Below are positions 25,636 to 34,936 of a stretch of DNA of 64,000 nt, in pieces. Numbering within the stretch: position 1 is the stretch's first letter; each line of letters opens with the position of its first letter. The notes under the pieces were generated by a model, which saw only the letters and a program-made list of their open reading frames with translations, was not told where the DNA came from and did not search any database. Both the position numbers and the translations under genes were made by a program. This DNA is from Nitrospira sp. (GTDB lineage Bacteria; Nitrospirota; Nitrospiria; Nitrospirales; Nitrospiraceae): assembly GCA_030123605.1 (NCBI GenBank), contig CP126123.1:1240001-1304000 (forward strand). The letters run 5' to 3'.

Positions 25636-26319
25636 ATGCACACACAAACCGCCAACAACCGCTCGTACCCGCCTTCACCTCTGATCGTCGCCGTCGTCGG
25701 AACACTGGCAGGTCTCCTGGCGCTGCTTCCATCCGCAGCCCTTGCCAGCCGGACGGTCACGGTGCCCATTTCCGTGGCGACCTCTGTGGACGATCAGTCG
25801 GGTTTCCCGACGTTCGTGATGAAATGGGATGAAGGCGGCCAACCGGATCCGGTGACCCTGCGTTGGGGACGGAGTCAGGTCCCGGTCCGGGGAGCCGGGA
25901 TGGGAGCGATTCAGCGAGCCTTCCGGTTCGCGGTCGAACGTCTCACGCCCTCGATTCATCCGACCGGCACCCTATCCCTTTACGCCACATTTACCGGACC
26001 GCTGAGCGCGGAAGGTTCGACTGCGGAAGCCGCCTTGGCCATCGGCTTTCTCGCCCTGCTCAAGGGAGATCCCCTGATCCAAGAAATTACGATCACCGGA
26101 ACGTTGGAAACCGACGGCCGAATCGGTCAGGTGGGACAGGTGGCAGAAAAAACGACGGCGGCGGCCCGCGCCGGATATCGGGTCCTTCTGGTCCCGCGAG
26201 GCCAATTTTACGCTCCCAGGATCAACCGCATCGCCCTGAACCTCGAATCGAGGGTGCTGGTCCGCGAAGTGGACACGATCGAGGAAGCCTACGAGATCAT
26301 GACGGGCAAGAAGTTGTAA
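25636..26319 (+). CDS. Exported Lon-protease-domain-like protein (S16)
   Basis: A 227-residue protein with an N-terminal hydrophobic segment (PLIVAVVGTLAGLLALLPSAALA, residues 16-38) that looks like a signal peptide or anchor. The rest matches the Lon proteolytic domain: Ser128 in AEGSTAEAALAIG, and 44 residues later Lys172 in VGQVAEKTTAAARAG. In E. coli Lon the Ser-Lys dyad is 43 residues apart in the same setting (family knowledge). There is no AAA+ domain. The preceding GLLSLYATFTGPLSAEG segment matches the strand and loop before the catalytic Ser. It is outside the cytoplasm, so it may act on envelope proteins. The gene converges on the CHAT gene. Confidence 0.8.
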   Translation: MHTQTANNRSYPPSPLIVAVVGTLAGLLALLPSAALASRTVTVPISVATSVDDQSGFPTFVMKWDEGGQPDPVTLRWGRSQVPVRGAGMGAIQRAFRFAVERLTPSIHPTGTLSLYATFTGPLSAEGSTAEAALAIGFLALLKGDPLIQEITITGTLETDGRIGQVGQVAEKTTAAARAGYRVLLVPRGQFYAPRINRIALNLESRVLVREVDTIEEAYEIMTGKKL

Positions 26320-26383: not shown

Positions 26384-28876
26384 TCACATCCAGTTATTGA
26401 GCAAGAGGAACGAGGCCCAATAGCTGGGGTGACTGCGACCACGCTGGGCAAGAATCTTCTGCTGAGCCCGTTGTAAGGCCACGGCTTTGGTAACGGCCGG
26501 ATCCTGCAACTGTCGATAGAACTCCGAGATCAGTTCCGATGTCGATTCATTTTCCGTCACCCAGAGACTCGCGAGGGCGGTCCTCGCCCCTGTCTTGACC
26601 GCCACCCCCGTCAAGCCGAGTGCCGCACGGTCGTCATCCGCAGCGGTCTCACAGGCACTGAGGGTCAGCAGATCCAACGGCTGCTGCCGATACTGTTGCA
26701 ACCCGATCAGTTGCGACAATCGATCCATGGAAATTTTGCCGTCATGGGCGAGCACAAACGATTCTTTCGCATCGTTTCCAATGACGGTGTGGGAAGCGAC
26801 ATGCACGATGCCCACCCCCTGATCCTTGATCTCCTGTTCCAGGATGGGTGCGGAAAACTGCTTATTCATCAGCAGCTTCCCTCCATAGAGCGTCCTGACG
26901 GCCTGGACTTCGCTTTCTACGTACAACGGAGCCGCGACCCCTTCGACGGATTCAGTCAACCCGACGGACAACAGCGTTCCCTTGCGGCGTTGGGCGGGAT
27001 TGAAATCGACCAACTCCATACTCGGCGTGACGGCGACCGCGAACTTGTCCACCACGAACTGCTTGCCGTCGTGCAACGCCCCGATCGGAATCGTCCGGAG
27101 TGCTCCGTCCGGCACCACCACCAGCGTAGTAATCCCGGCTGCCTGCAGACTCGGTTGCAGGGGCGCAACCAACCATCCATACAAGGTCTGTGCGGAAGGC
27201 AGGTAGTTCTGTGATCGAGGATCTTGAATCAGCTGCCTGAAAGTCCGGATTTCCTTCGTCAACCGCTCGCTTTTGACCGGCACTCCGACTTGCTTGAGAC
27301 CGTCCGCCGTCTCCACCAGCAACTCGAGTCGATCAGGTAGGGAAATGGGGTAGACCACGGCGGTATGGGGAGGAAGCGTGCCGTCGCGGCGCCGACTTTG
27401 CGCCGTCGCGACGCAATCGTCCTGAAAATAGTCCTGCAGCTCGGCCGCATAGGAATTCTCAACCGTGTCTTTGACCCGAACCAGCCACTGTTCGCTCTGC
27501 TCGGGAGTCTTCGACGCCGACGCCCGCCGCAACAGTACATCTTCATATTCTACGAAGAGCGGCGCCACGGAATCGTAAAACGAGTGGTGCCGTCCCTGAT
27601 ACCCGACGGAATATTCGTATCGAATCGGTTTCAGCAACGTCACGGCGTGCTGGTAGGCCTCCAACGCCTCGTCCTCCTTGCCCTCGGCTTTCAATAACCG
27701 CGCAGCCTGCCACTGCCATCGATAAAGCGATTCAGGCGCATTCACCTGCTGGGCCGCAAAGGAGGCCTTTCGTGAATACTCCAAGGCTTCAGCCTGGCGA
27801 TGTTCCTTTTCAAGCAACTCGCCCAGATAGCCCCAGGCATAGGATTGTCCCCTCACATCCCCGATCCTGCCGGCCACGTCACCTGCCGCAGTCAACACCT
27901 CGGCGGACCGTCGGAGCAGCGGGCCTCCCGTCCCGGCGGATGTGGGCGTCTCCGTCGTGCGCAGCTTGCCTGCGTCCGGCTTCTTACCCACCCCCTGCCG
28001 GGATGCCGTCAAGGCCGCATGAAGGTCTTGATAGCCCAACGCGACGTTCAACATCCCCGCCGCCTTGGCACGACTATCCGGAAGCGATTGCGCCGTCTGC
28101 CAGGCTTGATCGAACTGCCGTTGTGCTTCGCTCACCTGTCGGTTCTGCAACAAGGCCATCGCACCATTCACCTGAGCGGTCATGGCGAGGGGGAGTTGAT
28201 TGGTCTCGACCGCGAGGCTCCGGCTCTCCGCATACACGTCAATCGCTTCGGCGAACTGTTGGCGGACGCTCAGGGAATTCCCTAAATCATTGAGGAGAGC
28301 CGCGACCAGTCCGGAACGATGTTCCTCGCGGGCGAGCGTCAACGCTTTGGTCAAATGTTCCGTGGCGATCTCCTCTTTCCCCAAGACATGTGCCGTATTT
28401 CCGAGCTGTCCGAGAATGGTGGCGGTCAAGAGCCGGTTGCCAGTCTGCTCAGAGAGTGTGAGGGCCGTCTGCAAGGTTCCCTGAGCCCGGCGGATCTGAC
28501 CCTCTTGTTGAAAGGCATGCGCCAAATTGATCAACGCCTGGCATTGTTCTTTCGACTGTCCGCGTTCTTCATACTGACTGGCGGCGTCCATCCAATGGAC
28601 GGCCGCCTGCGCAAAGTTCCCCTGCTGGAAATGCGACTTTCCCCGTTGCATTTCTTGCTCAGGTGACGCGAAGGAAGGATTCCGGCCCGACTGCTGCATC
28701 ACATCTGCCGCCCCAACGTGAGGCCCGGCCAGCCAGTTCAGTGTCAAACATCCCACCCCCAACAACACAATTTTCAGAATCAGGGAATGGCCCCATGTGG
28801 ACGGCGTGATCGGCCTGTTTTCTCCGCTTCCGTCGGCATCCATCACCTTCTTACCGAGCATACCGAAAGTCGGCAT
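26384..28876 (-). CDS. CHAT-domain protease with TPR repeats, signal-bearing
   Basis: An 830-residue protein. After a hydrophobic segment near 30-50 (LILKIVLLGVGCLTLNWLAG) come TPR-like helical repeats (about 75-430; for example QGNFAQAAVHWMDAASQYEE). The C-terminal CHAT protease domain (about 560-830) has the His-Cys dyad: His696 in VHVASHTV and Cys742 in LSACETAADD. CHAT domains are caspase-like peptidases (family knowledge). AAGGAGG precedes the ATG at 28876. It is 18 bases downstream of the TpsA gene, in an operon with the two-partner secretion genes. The N-terminus before the hydrophobic part is unusually long (about 30 residues) and may be a membrane signal anchor. Confidence 0.87.
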   Translation of the reverse strand: MPTFGMLGKKVMDADGSGENRPITPSTWGHSLILKIVLLGVGCLTLNWLAGPHVGAADVMQQSGRNPSFASPEQEMQRGKSHFQQGNFAQAAVHWMDAASQYEERGQSKEQCQALINLAHAFQQEGQIRRAQGTLQTALTLSEQTGNRLLTATILGQLGNTAHVLGKEEIATEHLTKALTLAREEHRSGLVAALLNDLGNSLSVRQQFAEAIDVYAESRSLAVETNQLPLAMTAQVNGAMALLQNRQVSEAQRQFDQAWQTAQSLPDSRAKAAGMLNVALGYQDLHAALTASRQGVGKKPDAGKLRTTETPTSAGTGGPLLRRSAEVLTAAGDVAGRIGDVRGQSYAWGYLGELLEKEHRQAEALEYSRKASFAAQQVNAPESLYRWQWQAARLLKAEGKEDEALEAYQHAVTLLKPIRYEYSVGYQGRHHSFYDSVAPLFVEYEDVLLRRASASKTPEQSEQWLVRVKDTVENSYAAELQDYFQDDCVATAQSRRRDGTLPPHTAVVYPISLPDRLELLVETADGLKQVGVPVKSERLTKEIRTFRQLIQDPRSQNYLPSAQTLYGWLVAPLQPSLQAAGITTLVVVPDGALRTIPIGALHDGKQFVVDKFAVAVTPSMELVDFNPAQRRKGTLLSVGLTESVEGVAAPLYVESEVQAVRTLYGGKLLMNKQFSAPILEQEIKDQGVGIVHVASHTVIGNDAKESFVLAHDGKISMDRLSQLIGLQQYRQQPLDLLTLSACETAADDDRAALGLTGVAVKTGARTALASLWVTENESTSELISEFYRQLQDPAVTKAVALQRAQQKILAQRGRSHPSYWASFLLLNNWM

Positions 28877-28894
28877 GATATCCTCCTTGACGGA

Positions 28895-30172
28895 CTAACA
28901 GCCCGACCACGACTCGCTGACTTGTCCTGCCGGAACGATCCGCCGTCCCGTCAATTGCACCGTCGGAGCCCCTGCTCCGGTCTCCACACCCACGTCCTCC
29001 AGCACCACCGGTGCCGCCAACAAAGCCCCAGGCTGCCCAGGGGTAACATCCCGAGGAGCCTGGACGAAACTGCTGAACTCGCTACCCTTCCGTGACGCGC
29101 AACGACTGGTCAATAACGGAAGCGGTGCGGCCGGAGCCTGCTGTGGAAGCACCATGACCGCTCGATTCAGGAAGGCAGAGAGACCGACGGGGTTCAAAGC
29201 GGCATTCGTCCCTACATTCGCGCCCGGAAGCGGCGGAAGTGGACTCAAATTCGTCCCCACCACCTGAACCTGGGTCACCCGCTGAGTCTGAGGATTCGTC
29301 GTCGTGATCACCTGATTACCGGGGAGCACCGAAATATTCGGAAGCAGGTCCACCGAGGCGGGGATGACTCCCCCACCCCCCGCGGCGAGCAGCGTGCCTG
29401 GCTGCGCCTGGATCAGTCCGTTGCCCGAGGCGCCGGAAAAAGGATTTTGCACCGTCGGCTGCACGCTCATTTCCCCCCCGGAACTCGTACTACCCACAAT
29501 GATCCGTTGCGCGGTAATTTTCGATCCGTTGATCTGAATCGGCCCGCCCATCAAGCCGATCACCGCGCCGGTCTGGAGCAACGTAGAGGAGGATGACAAG
29601 ATAATGGAACCGTACGGACCGTTCCCGAGGAAACCGAATGCGACAGGGTTGCCGACCGATAGACTCGCGTCAAGGGCCAATAGCGCCGTATTGGCCGTAA
29701 ACACAGAATCACTGAGGCGCAGTTGCTGAGCCGTGCTGAAATAGGCGGACCCCGACACATTCAAATGGGCGGAAGGGCCGAAGACGATACCGGAAGGATT
29801 GAGAAAAAACAGGTTTGCGTTGAGCGCCTGGATGGTGCCGTTGATATTGGACGGCGATCCCCCGATCACGCGACTGATGATGTTGGCCACACCGGGATTG
29901 ATGAAGGCCGCTACATCGCCCGATCCCACTGAAAATTGATTGAAGCTGTGGAACAGATTGGGACCGTTTCCTGGCCTGGTCCCCCCGGTAATGTTGGTGG
30001 TATTCCCGGAAGCCGTAACCGTTGTGCCGAGACCTCCCGTCCCTATCGGGCCCGGGGTGGCCTGAATGTTCGTCGTTTGCGCATGGAGCGGGACGGCAGG
30101 AGTCGCCAGGGCGAACAACATCGACAGGGGCATCGCGATCCCGGTGAAGAGTCGCACAGTCTGAAACGTCAT
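28895..30172 (-). CDS. Two-partner secretion exoprotein TpsA (filamentous haemagglutinin N-terminal domain)
   Basis: A 425-residue secreted protein. The signal sequence ends near HAQTTNI, and the TPS domain follows (about 35-250) with the conserved FHSFNQFSVGSGDVAAF, NINGTIQALNANLFFLNPSG and HLNVSGSAYFSTAQQL. TPS domains are recognised by TpsB POTRA domains. It is short for a TpsA; after the TPS domain there is little left, ending in the two cysteines SRCASRKGSEFSSF and, as last residue, SWSGC. The C-x(n)-SSF motif is typical of cyanobacterial TpsA. AAGGAGG is six bases before the ATG. The gene follows tpsB by 141 bases and is followed after 18 bases by the CHAT gene. Confidence 0.88.
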   Translation of the reverse strand: MTFQTVRLFTGIAMPLSMLFALATPAVPLHAQTTNIQATPGPIGTGGLGTTVTASGNTTNITGGTRPGNGPNLFHSFNQFSVGSGDVAAFINPGVANIISRVIGGSPSNINGTIQALNANLFFLNPSGIVFGPSAHLNVSGSAYFSTAQQLRLSDSVFTANTALLALDASLSVGNPVAFGFLGNGPYGSIILSSSSTLLQTGAVIGLMGGPIQINGSKITAQRIIVGSTSSGGEMSVQPTVQNPFSGASGNGLIQAQPGTLLAAGGGGVIPASVDLLPNISVLPGNQVITTTNPQTQRVTQVQVVGTNLSPLPPLPGANVGTNAALNPVGLSAFLNRAVMVLPQQAPAAPLPLLTSRCASRKGSEFSSFVQAPRDVTPGQPGALLAAPVVLEDVGVETGAGAPTVQLTGRRIVPAGQVSESWSGC

Positions 30173-30313
30173 CGTGGTCCTCCTTGGCCGGATCCAGCAA
30201 GCGGTCAGCTCTCTTACTCCAATTCGGCGGACAAGTTCAAGGCACAGCGGACTACGTAAGGTGTTGCATCGAATCAACAGGGACAAGGCCGGCTCCATCC
30301 CTTTATCGAAAGG

Positions 30314-32122
30314 CTAGAACGCCTCCACCACCAGTTGCAGATGAACCCCGTGGTCCTGAAGGTTGTCGCGACCGGTATCGAACCGCTTCAACTGTTTTCC
30401 ATAATAAATTTCGAAATGGCTTCCCCGCCAAAAATTCCAGATCGCGCCGATGCCGACACTGGCCAGGGTCTTGGGAGGCGTGCCGGGCGTATTGACCGTG
30501 GTCTGCCACCCATGGCCGAGATCGAAAAACGGCGCCAGGAAGACTGTGTCCACCCCGGCCTTCGTCTGGTACACGGGAACTCGCACCTCGACCGATCCCA
30601 TGGCGGCATTGTCGCGAATGAGCGTGAACTCCCGATACCCGCGCACGCTGTAGCGTCCGCCGACCGCGATCTGTTCGAGCGGGAACAGATGGTCGTTCGA
30701 CAGTTGCACGATCCCGCGGCTGACCAACTGCGAACGCAGCACCGGAAGCTGCCTGATCCACTGGGCCTCGCCCAACCAGGAAAAGAAGCGGGCATCCGGA
30801 AGATTGGGGTCGCCGTTGGCGGTCGCCCCCAGGGCCCCGATACCCACGGAGAACCGCGAGAGGGCGGAGAACACCTGCTCGGCCGAGCGCCGCGCATACT
30901 CCTGCCCGAAGCGGAGCGAGGTCACCCGGAACTTCCCGCCCGGCGATCCTACGAGCAATTCGGTCGGGGTGCCCAACAGGAAACTCTCGTTGCGGGCATG
31001 TTCTCCGGTCAGCGAAAGGGCAAACTCCTGCTCGACGGTTCGATAGACCGGATGCCGGACGGAGATCCCGTAAATCTGAGCCTTGTTCTTGATGTCCAAT
31101 GATTCGAACGGATCTTCCTTGACGGCAAAATCAAACCGGCGGTACTGCACAGCCACCGTCGTATCGCGCGATGTGACCGGGACTTCATATTTGAAATTGA
31201 GCATGGGGTTCACACCGGCCGACCGCCCGTACTGCACGCTCAACGTATCGCCGAAGCCCAAGAGATTTCGATGGGCCAGCGTCACGAATCCTTGCTCGGC
31301 GCCGACGACGGGAGATTGGTAGTTGTTGAACTCCAGCCAGGCCTTGAACGGATTGGCTTCCGTCACCTTCACGTTGAGCGTATTGTCTCCGATGGCCGAC
31401 CCGGGAAGGAGTTCGGCGTTGACTCGTTCGATACGGGGATTGGCTTGAATCAGACGCAACCGGTCCTGCAACATCCCGACGTGCAGCGGGGGCCCGGCGG
31501 CCAGGTTGATGCGACTCCGGAAATAGGAGGGGCGGAACCATTTGGTACCCTCCACATTCACCTCGGTCAACTTACCCTCGATGATCTGCATCCTCAGGAT
31601 GCCGTCGGCCACGTCTTGTTCCGGAATCACCGCCCCCGACGTCAGGTACCCATGATTGATGTAATAGTAGGTAAGCGCCAACCGTAACCCTTCGAGATCC
31701 TCCGCGGTCAATTCTCGGTTGGTATAGGGCGCCGTGACTTCAGCCATCTGCTGCGCAGTGAAGGCCGTGTTCCCCGACAACCGGATCTCCTTGACCATGA
31801 TTCGCGGTCCCGTCACCAGCCGATCGGAGGGAACGGGCGGAGGAGACGGCGGCACCTCCAGTGCGGGAGGTTGAACAGGCGGCGGCACCGCGGGCAACTC
31901 CGGCGCTTTCGGCGGAAATTGGTTGGGCTGAGCCAGGATGGGAGTACTCCAAAACAGGAACAGCGGACCTGCGGCGAGCAACAGCGCGATCACCACGACC
32001 GGCGGGCATCTCATCGTCGCCGTCAATCGAAGACCACCGGAACCACAGGGCGCGGACAATGCACACCGGGACGAACGGTCCTTTGCCGGACCATGAACGA
32101 TCTCTTTCTCTTCACAAGCCAT
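30314..32122 (-). CDS. TpsB outer-membrane transporter (ShlB/FhaC/HecB type)
   Basis: A 602-residue outer-membrane protein. The signal peptide is MRCPPVVVIALLLAAGPLFLF (residues 38-58) after a charged N-terminal extension. Pro-rich linker, POTRA domains (about 125-310), then a 16-stranded barrel. The conserved L6 loop motif is VRGY in YSVRGYREF. It ends in Phe (LQLVVEAF), as expected for Omp85-type barrels. It would secrete the TpsA made by the next gene. ATG 32122 was chosen for its AAGGAGGGG site; starting there adds about 37 residues before the signal sequence, which is unusual, so a later start at MRCPP is possible. Confidence 0.9.
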   Translation of the reverse strand: MACEEKEIVHGPAKDRSSRCALSAPCGSGGLRLTATMRCPPVVVIALLLAAGPLFLFWSTPILAQPNQFPPKAPELPAVPPPVQPPALEVPPSPPPVPSDRLVTGPRIMVKEIRLSGNTAFTAQQMAEVTAPYTNRELTAEDLEGLRLALTYYYINHGYLTSGAVIPEQDVADGILRMQIIEGKLTEVNVEGTKWFRPSYFRSRINLAAGPPLHVGMLQDRLRLIQANPRIERVNAELLPGSAIGDNTLNVKVTEANPFKAWLEFNNYQSPVVGAEQGFVTLAHRNLLGFGDTLSVQYGRSAGVNPMLNFKYEVPVTSRDTTVAVQYRRFDFAVKEDPFESLDIKNKAQIYGISVRHPVYRTVEQEFALSLTGEHARNESFLLGTPTELLVGSPGGKFRVTSLRFGQEYARRSAEQVFSALSRFSVGIGALGATANGDPNLPDARFFSWLGEAQWIRQLPVLRSQLVSRGIVQLSNDHLFPLEQIAVGGRYSVRGYREFTLIRDNAAMGSVEVRVPVYQTKAGVDTVFLAPFFDLGHGWQTTVNTPGTPPKTLASVGIGAIWNFWRGSHFEIYYGKQLKRFDTGRDNLQDHGVHLQLVVEAF

Positions 32123-32555: not shown

Positions 32556-33959
32556 CTAACGATCCGGAGCAATGTTCCCCATCGGCGGTGCCTCTTCAAA
32601 CCGCGCCGTAAAATGCCGCAGCATTGGGGCTTCGTAGGTCATGAGCAATCCACCGATGGAGTCCCGCCGTCCGTACAAATCAACGATGGATTCTGCGACA
32701 TAGGTGATCTGCATGTTCGTATAGACGCGCCGGGGGATGGCCAATCGCACCAATTCCAACTCGGGATGAACGGGCCGTCCCGTCGCCGGATCCCGCTTCC
32801 CGAACATGACGGTCCCGATCTCGACGCCTCGGATGCCGTACTCCCTATAGAGCGCGACCGCGAGGGCCTGAGCCGGGAACCGCTCTTGCGAAAGGTGCGG
32901 CAGAAATTCTTTGGCGTTGAGGTAGACGGCGTGACCGCCGATCGGCTTGAGAATCGGGACTCGGCCTCCGTCCAACAGTTCGCCCAGATACCGTACCTGG
33001 CCGATCCGGAACCGCAAATATTCCTCATCGAGCACCTCTTCGAGCCCCCTGGCCATCGCTTCGAGATCACGGCCAGCCAAACCGCCGTAGGTGGGAAAAC
33101 CTTCGACCAGAATCAGCATGTTCGTGATGTCCTGTGTCCAACGCTCATCGTTGAGGCTGAGGAATCCGCCGATGTTCACCAGGCCGTCTTTTTTGGCCGA
33201 CATGGTGCAGCCGTCGCCATGGCTGAACAGTTCCCTGGCGATCTCCAGCACGGGCCGGTCGCCGTAACCCGCCTCTCGCTCCTTGATGAAGAAACAGTTC
33301 TCCGCGAAGCGGCAGGCATCGAAGAAGAGCGGGATGCCATGACGGTTAAGCACCTCGCGTGTCCGGCGGATATTGTCCATGGACACAGGCTGGCCGCCGC
33401 CGCTGTTGTTCGTGATCGTGATCATGACGAGGGGAATGCGATCACGGCCCAGGCGGTCGATGGTTGTTTCCAGCCGGATGAGATCCATGTTGCCCTTGAA
33501 GGGCAGGTCGCAATGCGGGTCATAGGCTTCCTTGATCACCAGATCGAGCGCCTCTGCCTTCTGGTGCTCCACGTTGGCCCTCGTCGTGTCGAAATGGATG
33601 TTGTTGAGCACGGACATACCGGGCTTGACGACCGTCGAGAACAGAAGATTCTCCGCCATCCGTCCTTGGTGGGTGGGGATCACATACCGATAGCCGAAGA
33701 TGGAACGCACCACCGCTTCGAAGTGGTAGTAATTTTTGCTGCCGGCGTAGGATTCGTCGCCCAGCATCAGGCCGGCCCATTGGTGATCGCTCATGGCGGA
33801 GGTGCCGCTGTCGGTGAGGAGATCGACGTAGACACTTTCGGCCGGAACGTGGAAGAGGTTGTACCCGGCCTCGCGGAGCAGCCGGTCGCGCTCTTCACGC
33901 GTGGTCCGGCGGATCGGTTCGACGACTTTGATCTTGAACGGCTCGGAGGGGAACTTCAC
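32556..33959 (-). CDS. tnaA: Tryptophanase (PLP-dependent)
   Basis: A 467-residue PLP enzyme of the tryptophanase/tyrosine phenol-lyase family, splitting an amino acid into its ring, pyruvate and ammonia. The PLP lysine is in MSAKKDG (Lys257). The two residues that tell the family members apart match tryptophanase: Asp124 (HFDTTR, Asp in TnaA, Thr124 in tyrosine phenol-lyase) and Ile381 (VEIGT, Ile in TnaA, Arg381 in tyrosine phenol-lyase). So the predicted reaction is Trp to indole. The start is GTG overlapping the TGA of the upstream regulator gene (GTGA); the two form an operon. Confidence 0.87.
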   Translation of the reverse strand: MKFPSEPFKIKVVEPIRRTTREERDRLLREAGYNLFHVPAESVYVDLLTDSGTSAMSDHQWAGLMLGDESYAGSKNYYHFEAVVRSIFGYRYVIPTHQGRMAENLLFSTVVKPGMSVLNNIHFDTTRANVEHQKAEALDLVIKEAYDPHCDLPFKGNMDLIRLETTIDRLGRDRIPLVMITITNNSGGGQPVSMDNIRRTREVLNRHGIPLFFDACRFAENCFFIKEREAGYGDRPVLEIARELFSHGDGCTMSAKKDGLVNIGGFLSLNDERWTQDITNMLILVEGFPTYGGLAGRDLEAMARGLEEVLDEEYLRFRIGQVRYLGELLDGGRVPILKPIGGHAVYLNAKEFLPHLSQERFPAQALAVALYREYGIRGVEIGTVMFGKRDPATGRPVHPELELVRLAIPRRVYTNMQITYVAESIVDLYGRRDSIGGLLMTYEAPMLRHFTARFEEAPPMGNIAPDR

Positions 33960-34936
33960 GGTTGGCCTCTCAAAAATCGCGCGAGGTGCGCGCGAAACGG
34001 TGCTGCCCCTTCGTAATCGAACACGTACCGCGTCATGTCGAAGAGGGACGCGGGGTTCAGATCGCGAAGGAGTTCCGGCTTCCAGGTGATTTCCAGCTGG
34101 TTGATCATCGTGATCAGCGTCGGTTTTCCCACCATACCCAACGGAACTTGCCCGTACGATTGCGAAAAGATGAGGATCTCTTCGTCGAACATCGCTGCAT
34201 TGATGTCACGGGGCGCGCCCTGCCTGTGATAATCCTCCTGGAACCGCCGGAAGGCCGTGGACCGTTCCAATTCCTCCCGAAACGAAAAACAGATCTTGAT
34301 ACCGGCTCGACGCTGATCGTCCATGACCTCGACGGCGTCGGTCACCAACGAGTCCTGCCGCATCTGTTCTTCCGACAGTACGAGCAACCGGCGGACGGTC
34401 ACGCCCCGCTTCGCCGCCTCCTGGTTGGCCAACAGATAACTCGGATAGAGGGCCTCTCCCTTCTTCCAAATGTTCCATCGTTCCATGACGGCATCGATCG
34501 AGCGCTCCGCCGTTTCAACGAGCCTCACCGCCTCCGCACTGGCGGCCGCACCCTGGTAGATCAGCGTCTGAGATTCCAGTTGGCGCAGCTCACGCCCGAT
34601 CGCCGCCACCTTTTTCGGTAGATATTTCGGACTCTTGGGCACGTGCAACATGACGTCCACGGCGGTGCGCGCGAGGGTCCAATATTCCTTGGCGGCGGCC
34701 GGAGCCTTGTCCTTCTGGGCGACCAGCAACAGCTCCACCGGATTCTTGTCCAACAGTTTGGCCATCTTGATGCACAGTTCCGGCTTGGGAATCTTGAGGC
34801 CGCGACGCATCAGGTTGGCTTCCGGTTGGGCGATCCCCAGTTTCTCCGCCAACGCATAATCGCTGCTCAAGCCGTACCGGTCTTTTATCGCGTCAAAGTA
34901 GCCGGCGATCTCCATCATCTCGACCCCATCGAACAT
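33956..34936 (-). CDS. HTH regulator with a C-terminal domain of unknown type, next to tnaA
   Basis: A 326-residue protein. Residues about 15-75 form an XRE-type helix-turn-helix (YALAEKLGIAQPEANLMRRGLKIPKPELCIKMAKLLDKNPVELL). The C-terminal 220 residues (RSIDAVMERWNIWKKGEALYPSYLL... SFREELERSTAFRRF... EEILIFSQSYGQVPLGMVGKP) do not match a family I can name; they may form a ligand-binding or PLD-like sensor. Its stop overlaps the tnaA GTG, so it probably regulates tnaA in response to tryptophan or indole (inference). Start uncertain: ATG 34936 or 34918. Confidence 0.7.
   Translation of the reverse strand: MFDGVEMMEIAGYFDAIKDRYGLSSDYALAEKLGIAQPEANLMRRGLKIPKPELCIKMAKLLDKNPVELLLVAQKDKAPAAAKEYWTLARTAVDVMLHVPKSPKYLPKKVAAIGRELRQLESQTLIYQGAAASAEAVRLVETAERSIDAVMERWNIWKKGEALYPSYLLANQEAAKRGVTVRRLLVLSEEQMRQDSLVTDAVEVMDDQRRAGIKICFSFREELERSTAFRRFQEDYHRQGAPRDINAAMFDEEILIFSQSYGQVPLGMVGKPTLITMINQLEITWKPELLRDLNPASLFDMTRYVFDYEGAAPFRAHLARFLRGQP

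Follow-up and report, generated by a model that had tools for sequence, protein, structure and literature searches.

A type Vb (two-partner) secretion operon of Nitrospira sp. encodes the transporter TpsB, a short TpsA exoprotein and a signal-bearing TPR-CHAT protein. Comparison of genomes strongly supports a functional link between the secretion pair and the CHAT protein: the genes are syntenic in 27 other Nitrospira genomes, the pairing reappears in a number of phyla in varying gene orders, TPS and CHAT domains are repeatedly fused, and a motif in the TpsA tail tracks CHAT. On balance, we think it probable that the secretion system has its own exported TPR-CHAT partner which acts on the TpsA tail, ancestrally by cutting it and, in the clade of the window, by holding it. 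The window is the whole 64,000-nucleotide stretch of contig CP126123.1 that was analysed (positions 1,240,001 to 1,304,000).

The operon and its proteins

The three minus-strand genes follow one another head to tail in the order TpsB, TpsA, TPR-CHAT. They form one operon with a ribosome site before each gene, and a preliminary description of this DNA was right about their coordinates, order and strand. TpsB (30314..32122, minus strand, 602 residues) is an outer-membrane transporter with a POTRA domain and a ShlB/FhaC-type barrel (Pfam POTRA_2 PF08479, 5.8e-23; ShlB PF03865, 1.6e-32). Its ATG at 32122 is preceded by the ribosome site AAGGAGGGG. TpsA (28895..30172, minus strand) has a signal peptide and a TPS domain with an NPSG motif (Pfam TPS PF05860, 1e-31; TIGR01901, 8.2e-20). 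We place its start at 30172, giving 425 residues, because the ATG there is preceded by an AAGGAGG ribosome site and conservation across the genus sets in at this point. An alternative frame of 467 residues begins at 30298, and the first 36 residues of its 42-residue extension are not conserved in the genus alignment. Both genes that mark a type Vb system are present, namely a TpsA with a TPS domain and NPXG motif and an adjoining TpsB with ShlB-type POTRA and barrel.

The TPR-CHAT gene (26384..28876, minus strand, 830 residues) follows TpsA after a gap of 18 bp and also starts behind an AAGGAGG site. The protein belongs to the CHAT family, with a match to PF12770 at 5.6e-53 (180.7 bits, cut-off 24) and N-terminal TPRs. 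A signal-like segment at about residues 29-56 is followed by TPRs (about 72-484) and the CHAT region (about 505-830). The AlphaFold model (pLDDT 85, pTM 0.80) consists of a TPR array and a CHAT domain. Its best match in the PDB is Csx29 in Craspase, with Z about 30, and TPR proteins and separases come next. The N-terminal hydrophobic segment, judged here by hydropathy, is shared by 66 of 73 unfused CHAT relatives; the other seven have no clear one. Together with the TPS-CHAT fusions described below, these segments support export of the CHAT protein. Between the TPR and CHAT parts, an ELQDYFQDDC motif is nearly invariant (E479, L480, D486, C488). C488 lies outside the catalytic site and is invariant in 36 of 36 aligned CHAT relatives, exceeding the catalytic cysteine in this respect.

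The genome of the window (4.316 Mb, one contig) contains one TpsA and one TpsB, its sole two-partner pair, and two CHAT genes. The remaining POTRA_2 matches fall in one frame of 795 residues, probably BamA. The second CHAT gene (L098, 4275-7742, minus strand; C1, about 349-353 kb) encodes a protein of a different kind, with 1155 residues and a hydrolase-like N-terminal part and without a signal-like segment. There is no TPS gene near it.

The convergent neighbour of the operon (25636..26319, plus strand) encodes a signal-bearing protein with a Lon C-terminal-like (S16) domain (Pfam Lon_C, 4.7e-8). It adjoins the operon across the short-TpsA clade, to which the window belongs, in all but one short contig, and is not necessarily a member of the system. 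Compared with what we take to be the corresponding stretch of E. coli Lon, the position of the catalytic Ser is Thr in all copies, and the Lys is nearly always kept. Directly upstream of TpsB lies the gene of a tryptophanase/tyrosine phenol-lyase family enzyme (32556-33959, minus strand; NF009709, 7.5e-200), and next to it is a gene (33956-34936) that matches an HTH weakly.

Pairing of TPS and CHAT genes across genomes

A close orthologue of the short TpsA was found in 27 of 28 other members of the genus searched, the exception being a 66%-complete assembly. In all 27 it adjoins TpsB and CHAT in the order B-A-CHAT. Other Nitrospira have a larger arrangement, TpsA(s)-TpsB-CHAT, with a TpsA of about 1000 residues and often with CHASE2 and DUF928 genes. 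At five of the loci read (L127, L128, L129, L153, L158), between two and four TpsA genes stand in tandem next to a single CHAT and/or TpsB gene. A CHASE2 homologue is present in 28 of 29 Nitrospira genomes (at 1935328-1936398 in that of the window). No CHAT, TPS or DUF928 gene lies near it in the four genomes examined, and it is not counted as a part of the system.

A search of genome contigs for CHAT gave 52 loci. TPS genes are found beside CHAT in Desulfobacula, Beggiatoaceae/Thioploca, Beta- and Gammaproteobacteria and Cyanothece, several of the non-Nitrospira contigs being metagenome bins. Outside the genus the paired genes have the same, convergent or divergent orientation, and the gene orders are shuffled. 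On a Pseudanabaena plasmid TpsB, CHASE2, TpsA, CHAT and DUF928 are grouped; the order is TpsA-TpsB-CHAT-DUF928-CHASE2 on a Planktothrix plasmid and TpsA-CHAT-DUF928-CHASE2 on plasmid pANACY.04 of Anabaena cylindrica PCC 7122. The pairing is frequent and not universal, since two of six plasmid TPR-CHAT loci read (Nostoc pNsp_b and Nostoc pTCL26-01_B) have no annotated TPS gene nearby. In eight cyanobacterial genomes, taken from an even draw of one order, 32 of the 48 TPS genes listed (best matches, and hence a sample) lie less than 10 kb from a CHAT gene. Random placement would give 3.1, so the enrichment is about ten-fold. Looking for CHAT next to TpsA in relatives was a check set beforehand, and the adjacency recurs in both Nitrospirota and cyanobacteria. 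The association had been thought rare outside cyanobacteria; its presence in Nitrospirota, Proteobacteria and Desulfobacterota shows otherwise.

CHASE2 and DUF928 genes stand beside TPR-CHAT at a number of loci (L049, L050, L052, L082, L056, L057, L072, L074, L093-L096), and neither is found beside the window operon. In other lineages they probably belong to the system as additional components. We also considered the CHASE2 partners as CHAT proteins themselves and dropped this idea, as a weak half CHAT domain is seen in some cyanobacterial copies only.

In some lineages the two proteins are one polypeptide. Single frames containing TPS, TPR and CHAT were found in a Parabeggiatoa bin (L076, 3-4445, 1481 residues) and in the complete record of the Acaryochloris marina plasmid pREC3 (L097, 5818-11088, 1756 residues). 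A second Parabeggiatoa frame (L080, 3877-7548, 1224 residues) contains TPS and CHAT with no TPR by Pfam, and four further fusions (L139-L142) come from two cyanobacterial genomes. In L076, L080 and L097 the junction, read by eye, comes directly after the TpsA tail motif. In the fusions CHAT is thus joined to the C-terminus of TpsA and follows the TpsA signal peptide. Downstream of the fusion in L097, the annotation shows genes for toxin-activating acyltransferases and for a calcium-binding protein.

A neighbourhood can persist passively within one genus, and the window genes could on that account be chance or inherited neighbours with no functional link. We give this next to no credence, because it is contradicted by the recurrence in several phyla with varied gene orders, the repeated fusion and the roughly ten-fold enrichment.

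The TpsA tail and the CHAT active site

The structure prediction for the window TpsA had a pLDDT of 35, and the tail was therefore examined by sequence. A motif C(x9)SSF...RDVTPxQPG begins at C358 (29027..29101, minus strand), which is C400 in the numbering of the 467-residue frame. In that numbering C400, S409 and S410 are invariant in an alignment of 14 rows. The motif profile matches the window TpsA at 7.9e-15; the window sequence is itself one of the 18 from which this profile was made. The preliminary description had the protein end in a Cys-SSF motif. The motif is there, and a second conserved cysteine, C425 (C467 of the long frame), is the last residue, in a terminal ESW(S/Q)GC before the stop codon (28895..28915, minus strand). 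E462, S463, W464, G466 and C467 are likewise invariant in the 14 rows.

Near their C-terminus, CHAT-linked TpsA proteins share a Cys, after which come S[SQT]F and GRGGLP-like residues; most groups have a second Cys near the end. The two cysteines are 67 residues apart in the window TpsA and 95-98 in four cyanobacterial proteins. The copies read from Beggiatoaceae and Desulfobacula have the first tail Cys only.

A motif profile built without the window sequence (A3) was run on 349 Pseudomonadota genomes. TPS was found in 119 of these, CHAT in 99 and the motif in eight, and all eight motif genomes have CHAT. Adjacency was counted by eye from the listed matches: 7 of 13 motif-bearing TPS proteins are encoded within 10 kb of CHAT, compared with about 2 of 140 other TPS proteins listed (Fisher p 1.7e-7; 1.6e-6 without the seed genome). 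The motif is also borne by most cyanobacterial TpsA proteins, with or without a linked CHAT gene. Many of these have no CHAT gene in the surrounding stretch examined, so a strict requirement of the motif for an adjacent CHAT was rejected for cyanobacteria. The eight cyanobacterial genomes searched have 10-46 CHAT genes each.

The catalytic dyad of the window CHAT domain is placed exactly where it had been proposed, at His696 (codon 26789..26791, minus strand; VHVASH-T) and Cys742 (26651..26653, minus strand; LSACET). Thr takes the place of Gly in the usual His-Gly. In the tree the change from His-Gly to His-Thr/Ser is a single event at the base of the 26-row clade of the window; in a sister type (L126, L131), which shares the B-A-CHAT order, His-Gly is intact. 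Separate branches within the clade have lost His (L100/L102, L118, L125) or Cys (L115). The alignments thus indicate independent loss of His or Cys in at least four lineages. The H to Q change of L100 and L102 is the only loss present in two assemblies, and those known from a single assembly could be sequence errors. The pairwise dN/dS of the CHAT domain is about 0.03 (0.027-0.054) with the dyad-loss lineages included, which is purifying selection, and the domain is conserved more strongly than the TPR part. Judged from these comparisons, the dyad in this clade is under relaxed constraint. Since constraint on the domain persists where the dyad is lost, the domain appears to serve some purpose in addition to cleavage or in place of it.

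These data bear on two other readings of the CHAT protein. It may be an active TpsA protease in the window genome as well, His696 and Cys742 cleaving near the C-terminal Cys motif and so releasing or maturing the adhesin. The window protein and most relatives have the dyad intact, and both residues are kept in every aligned CHAT protein from outside the clade. The predicted fold resembles those of the active proteases Csx29 and separase, and LapG acting on CdrA is a precedent for a periplasmic protease working on a TpsA tail (PMC11898600). The clade-wide Thr or Ser after His and the loss of catalytic residues in a domain that is still constrained speak against this reading, and we regard it as unlikely, if worth keeping in view. 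Conversely, CHAT may be a pure pseudo-protease across the short-TpsA clade, a structural binding module (tether, chaperone or TpsB plug) with no proteolysis. The repeated dyad losses without decay of the domain, and its better conservation than that of the TPR part, would fit; the His and Cys kept by most members, including the window, would be needless in a wholly non-catalytic protein. We find this reading doubtful to the same degree. The preliminary description proposed that a protease beside the secretion pair could process or control the adhesin. The functional link in that proposal holds well, whereas the word protease is weakened and may be wrong for the window's lineage, as the Gly after His is lost and His or Cys is missing in several lineages.

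Known systems and a proposed mechanism

Like FhaB/FhaC, HMW1A/B and CdrA/B, the window operon combines a TpsA with an N-terminal TPS domain and a TpsB with POTRA and a ShlB-type barrel. It differs from the usual type Vb operon in encoding a TPR-CHAT partner and in its unusually short TpsA. The proteases known to process TpsA (SphB1, LapG) are, to our knowledge, encoded elsewhere in the genome. According to a 2017 review, genes for maturation proteases do not seem to belong to TPS operons (PMC5422565). We found no report linking CHAT with two-partner secretion, filamentous hemagglutinin or DUF928; mention in subscription journals is possible.

LapG is a transglutaminase-like Cys protease regulated by LapD. 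CdrA, the TpsA of Pseudomonas aeruginosa, is anchored in TpsB by a C-terminal cysteine hook, and a protease of the periplasm works close to its C-terminus (PMC11898600, PMC7616799). The window TpsA has two conserved C-terminal cysteines (C400 and C467 in long-frame numbering) with a putative disulfide or anchoring role. Unlike LapG, the partner in the window has a CHAT (clan CD) fold with TPRs. The spacing of the two tail cysteines, 67 residues here and about 96-98 in cyanobacteria, also sets these systems apart from CdrA.

In Csx29 of type III-E CRISPR (Craspase), too, a CHAT domain bearing a His/Cys dyad comes after the TPRs. Csx29 is bound to Cas7-11 and cytoplasmic, whereas the window protein is signal-bearing and TPS-linked, with about 10% identity. 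No Cas7-11/gRAMP gene flanks it; the flanking genes are TpsA, TpsB and the Lon-like and tryptophanase-like genes. PADLOC gave no CRISPR match for the three operon proteins. The resemblance raises the idea of a caspase-like defence or cell-death module, comparable to Craspase or the gasdermin-protease systems, with CHAT as the detector of stress or attack and TpsA as its toxin or sensor. CHAT proteases are indeed known in prokaryotic immunity (Csx29), and Craspase is the closest solved structure. However, the proteins are signal-bearing, the only PADLOC match is to a generic TPR model, no toxin or immunity gene was recognised alongside, and the operon is near-universal and syntenic in the genus, whereas defence genes are patchy. 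We consider a defence module very improbable. HetF is the founding CHAT protein and has a divisome and heterocyst role. In Anabaena it is a putative protease whose active site is required (PMC8406250). The window protein shares the CHAT domain with HetF, and the HetF account differs in having no TPS genes.

We propose the following mechanism for the favoured reading. TpsA is unfolded in the periplasm and enters TpsB with its TPS domain first and its tail last. TpsB and TpsA of the window would operate like those of every type Vb system. The TPR-CHAT protein, which is probably located in the periplasm, would bind and act on the C-terminal tail once this reaches TpsB. The target would be the C...S[SQ]F...GRGGLP-like motif, in most groups with the second Cys near the end. 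A signal-bearing protein linked or fused to the tail would be well placed to hold or cut it. The ancestral role of CHAT, represented by the five-gene Nitrospira and the cyanobacterial systems with their intact His-Gly/Cys, is most likely to cut or trim the tail, which would decide between retention and release of the adhesin, as LapG does for CdrA. In the short-TpsA clade, CHAT more likely binds and holds the tail as a tether, gatekeeper or export-competence factor, proteolysis being dispensable, since the dyad there, although still present, is under relaxed constraint.

More broadly, and more tentatively, these systems may form an undescribed and widespread class of type Vb secretion. An exported caspase-fold protein, encoded next to TpsA or fused with it and frequently accompanied by CHASE2 and DUF928 partners, would respond to signals from outside and control the fate of the adhesin tail; in Nitrospira it would have become a pseudo-protease tether.

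The caspase-fold partner is found inside the TPS operon, and in some lineages in the same polypeptide, in several phyla, and its presence tracks the C-terminal motif of TpsA. With this linkage, the role of the motif is directly testable, and a single genus offers a natural series from an intact to a broken catalytic site. For extracytoplasmic CHAT proteins, which number in the dozens in cyanobacteria, the findings suggest a role, and they point to an undescribed handling of the tails of exported adhesins.
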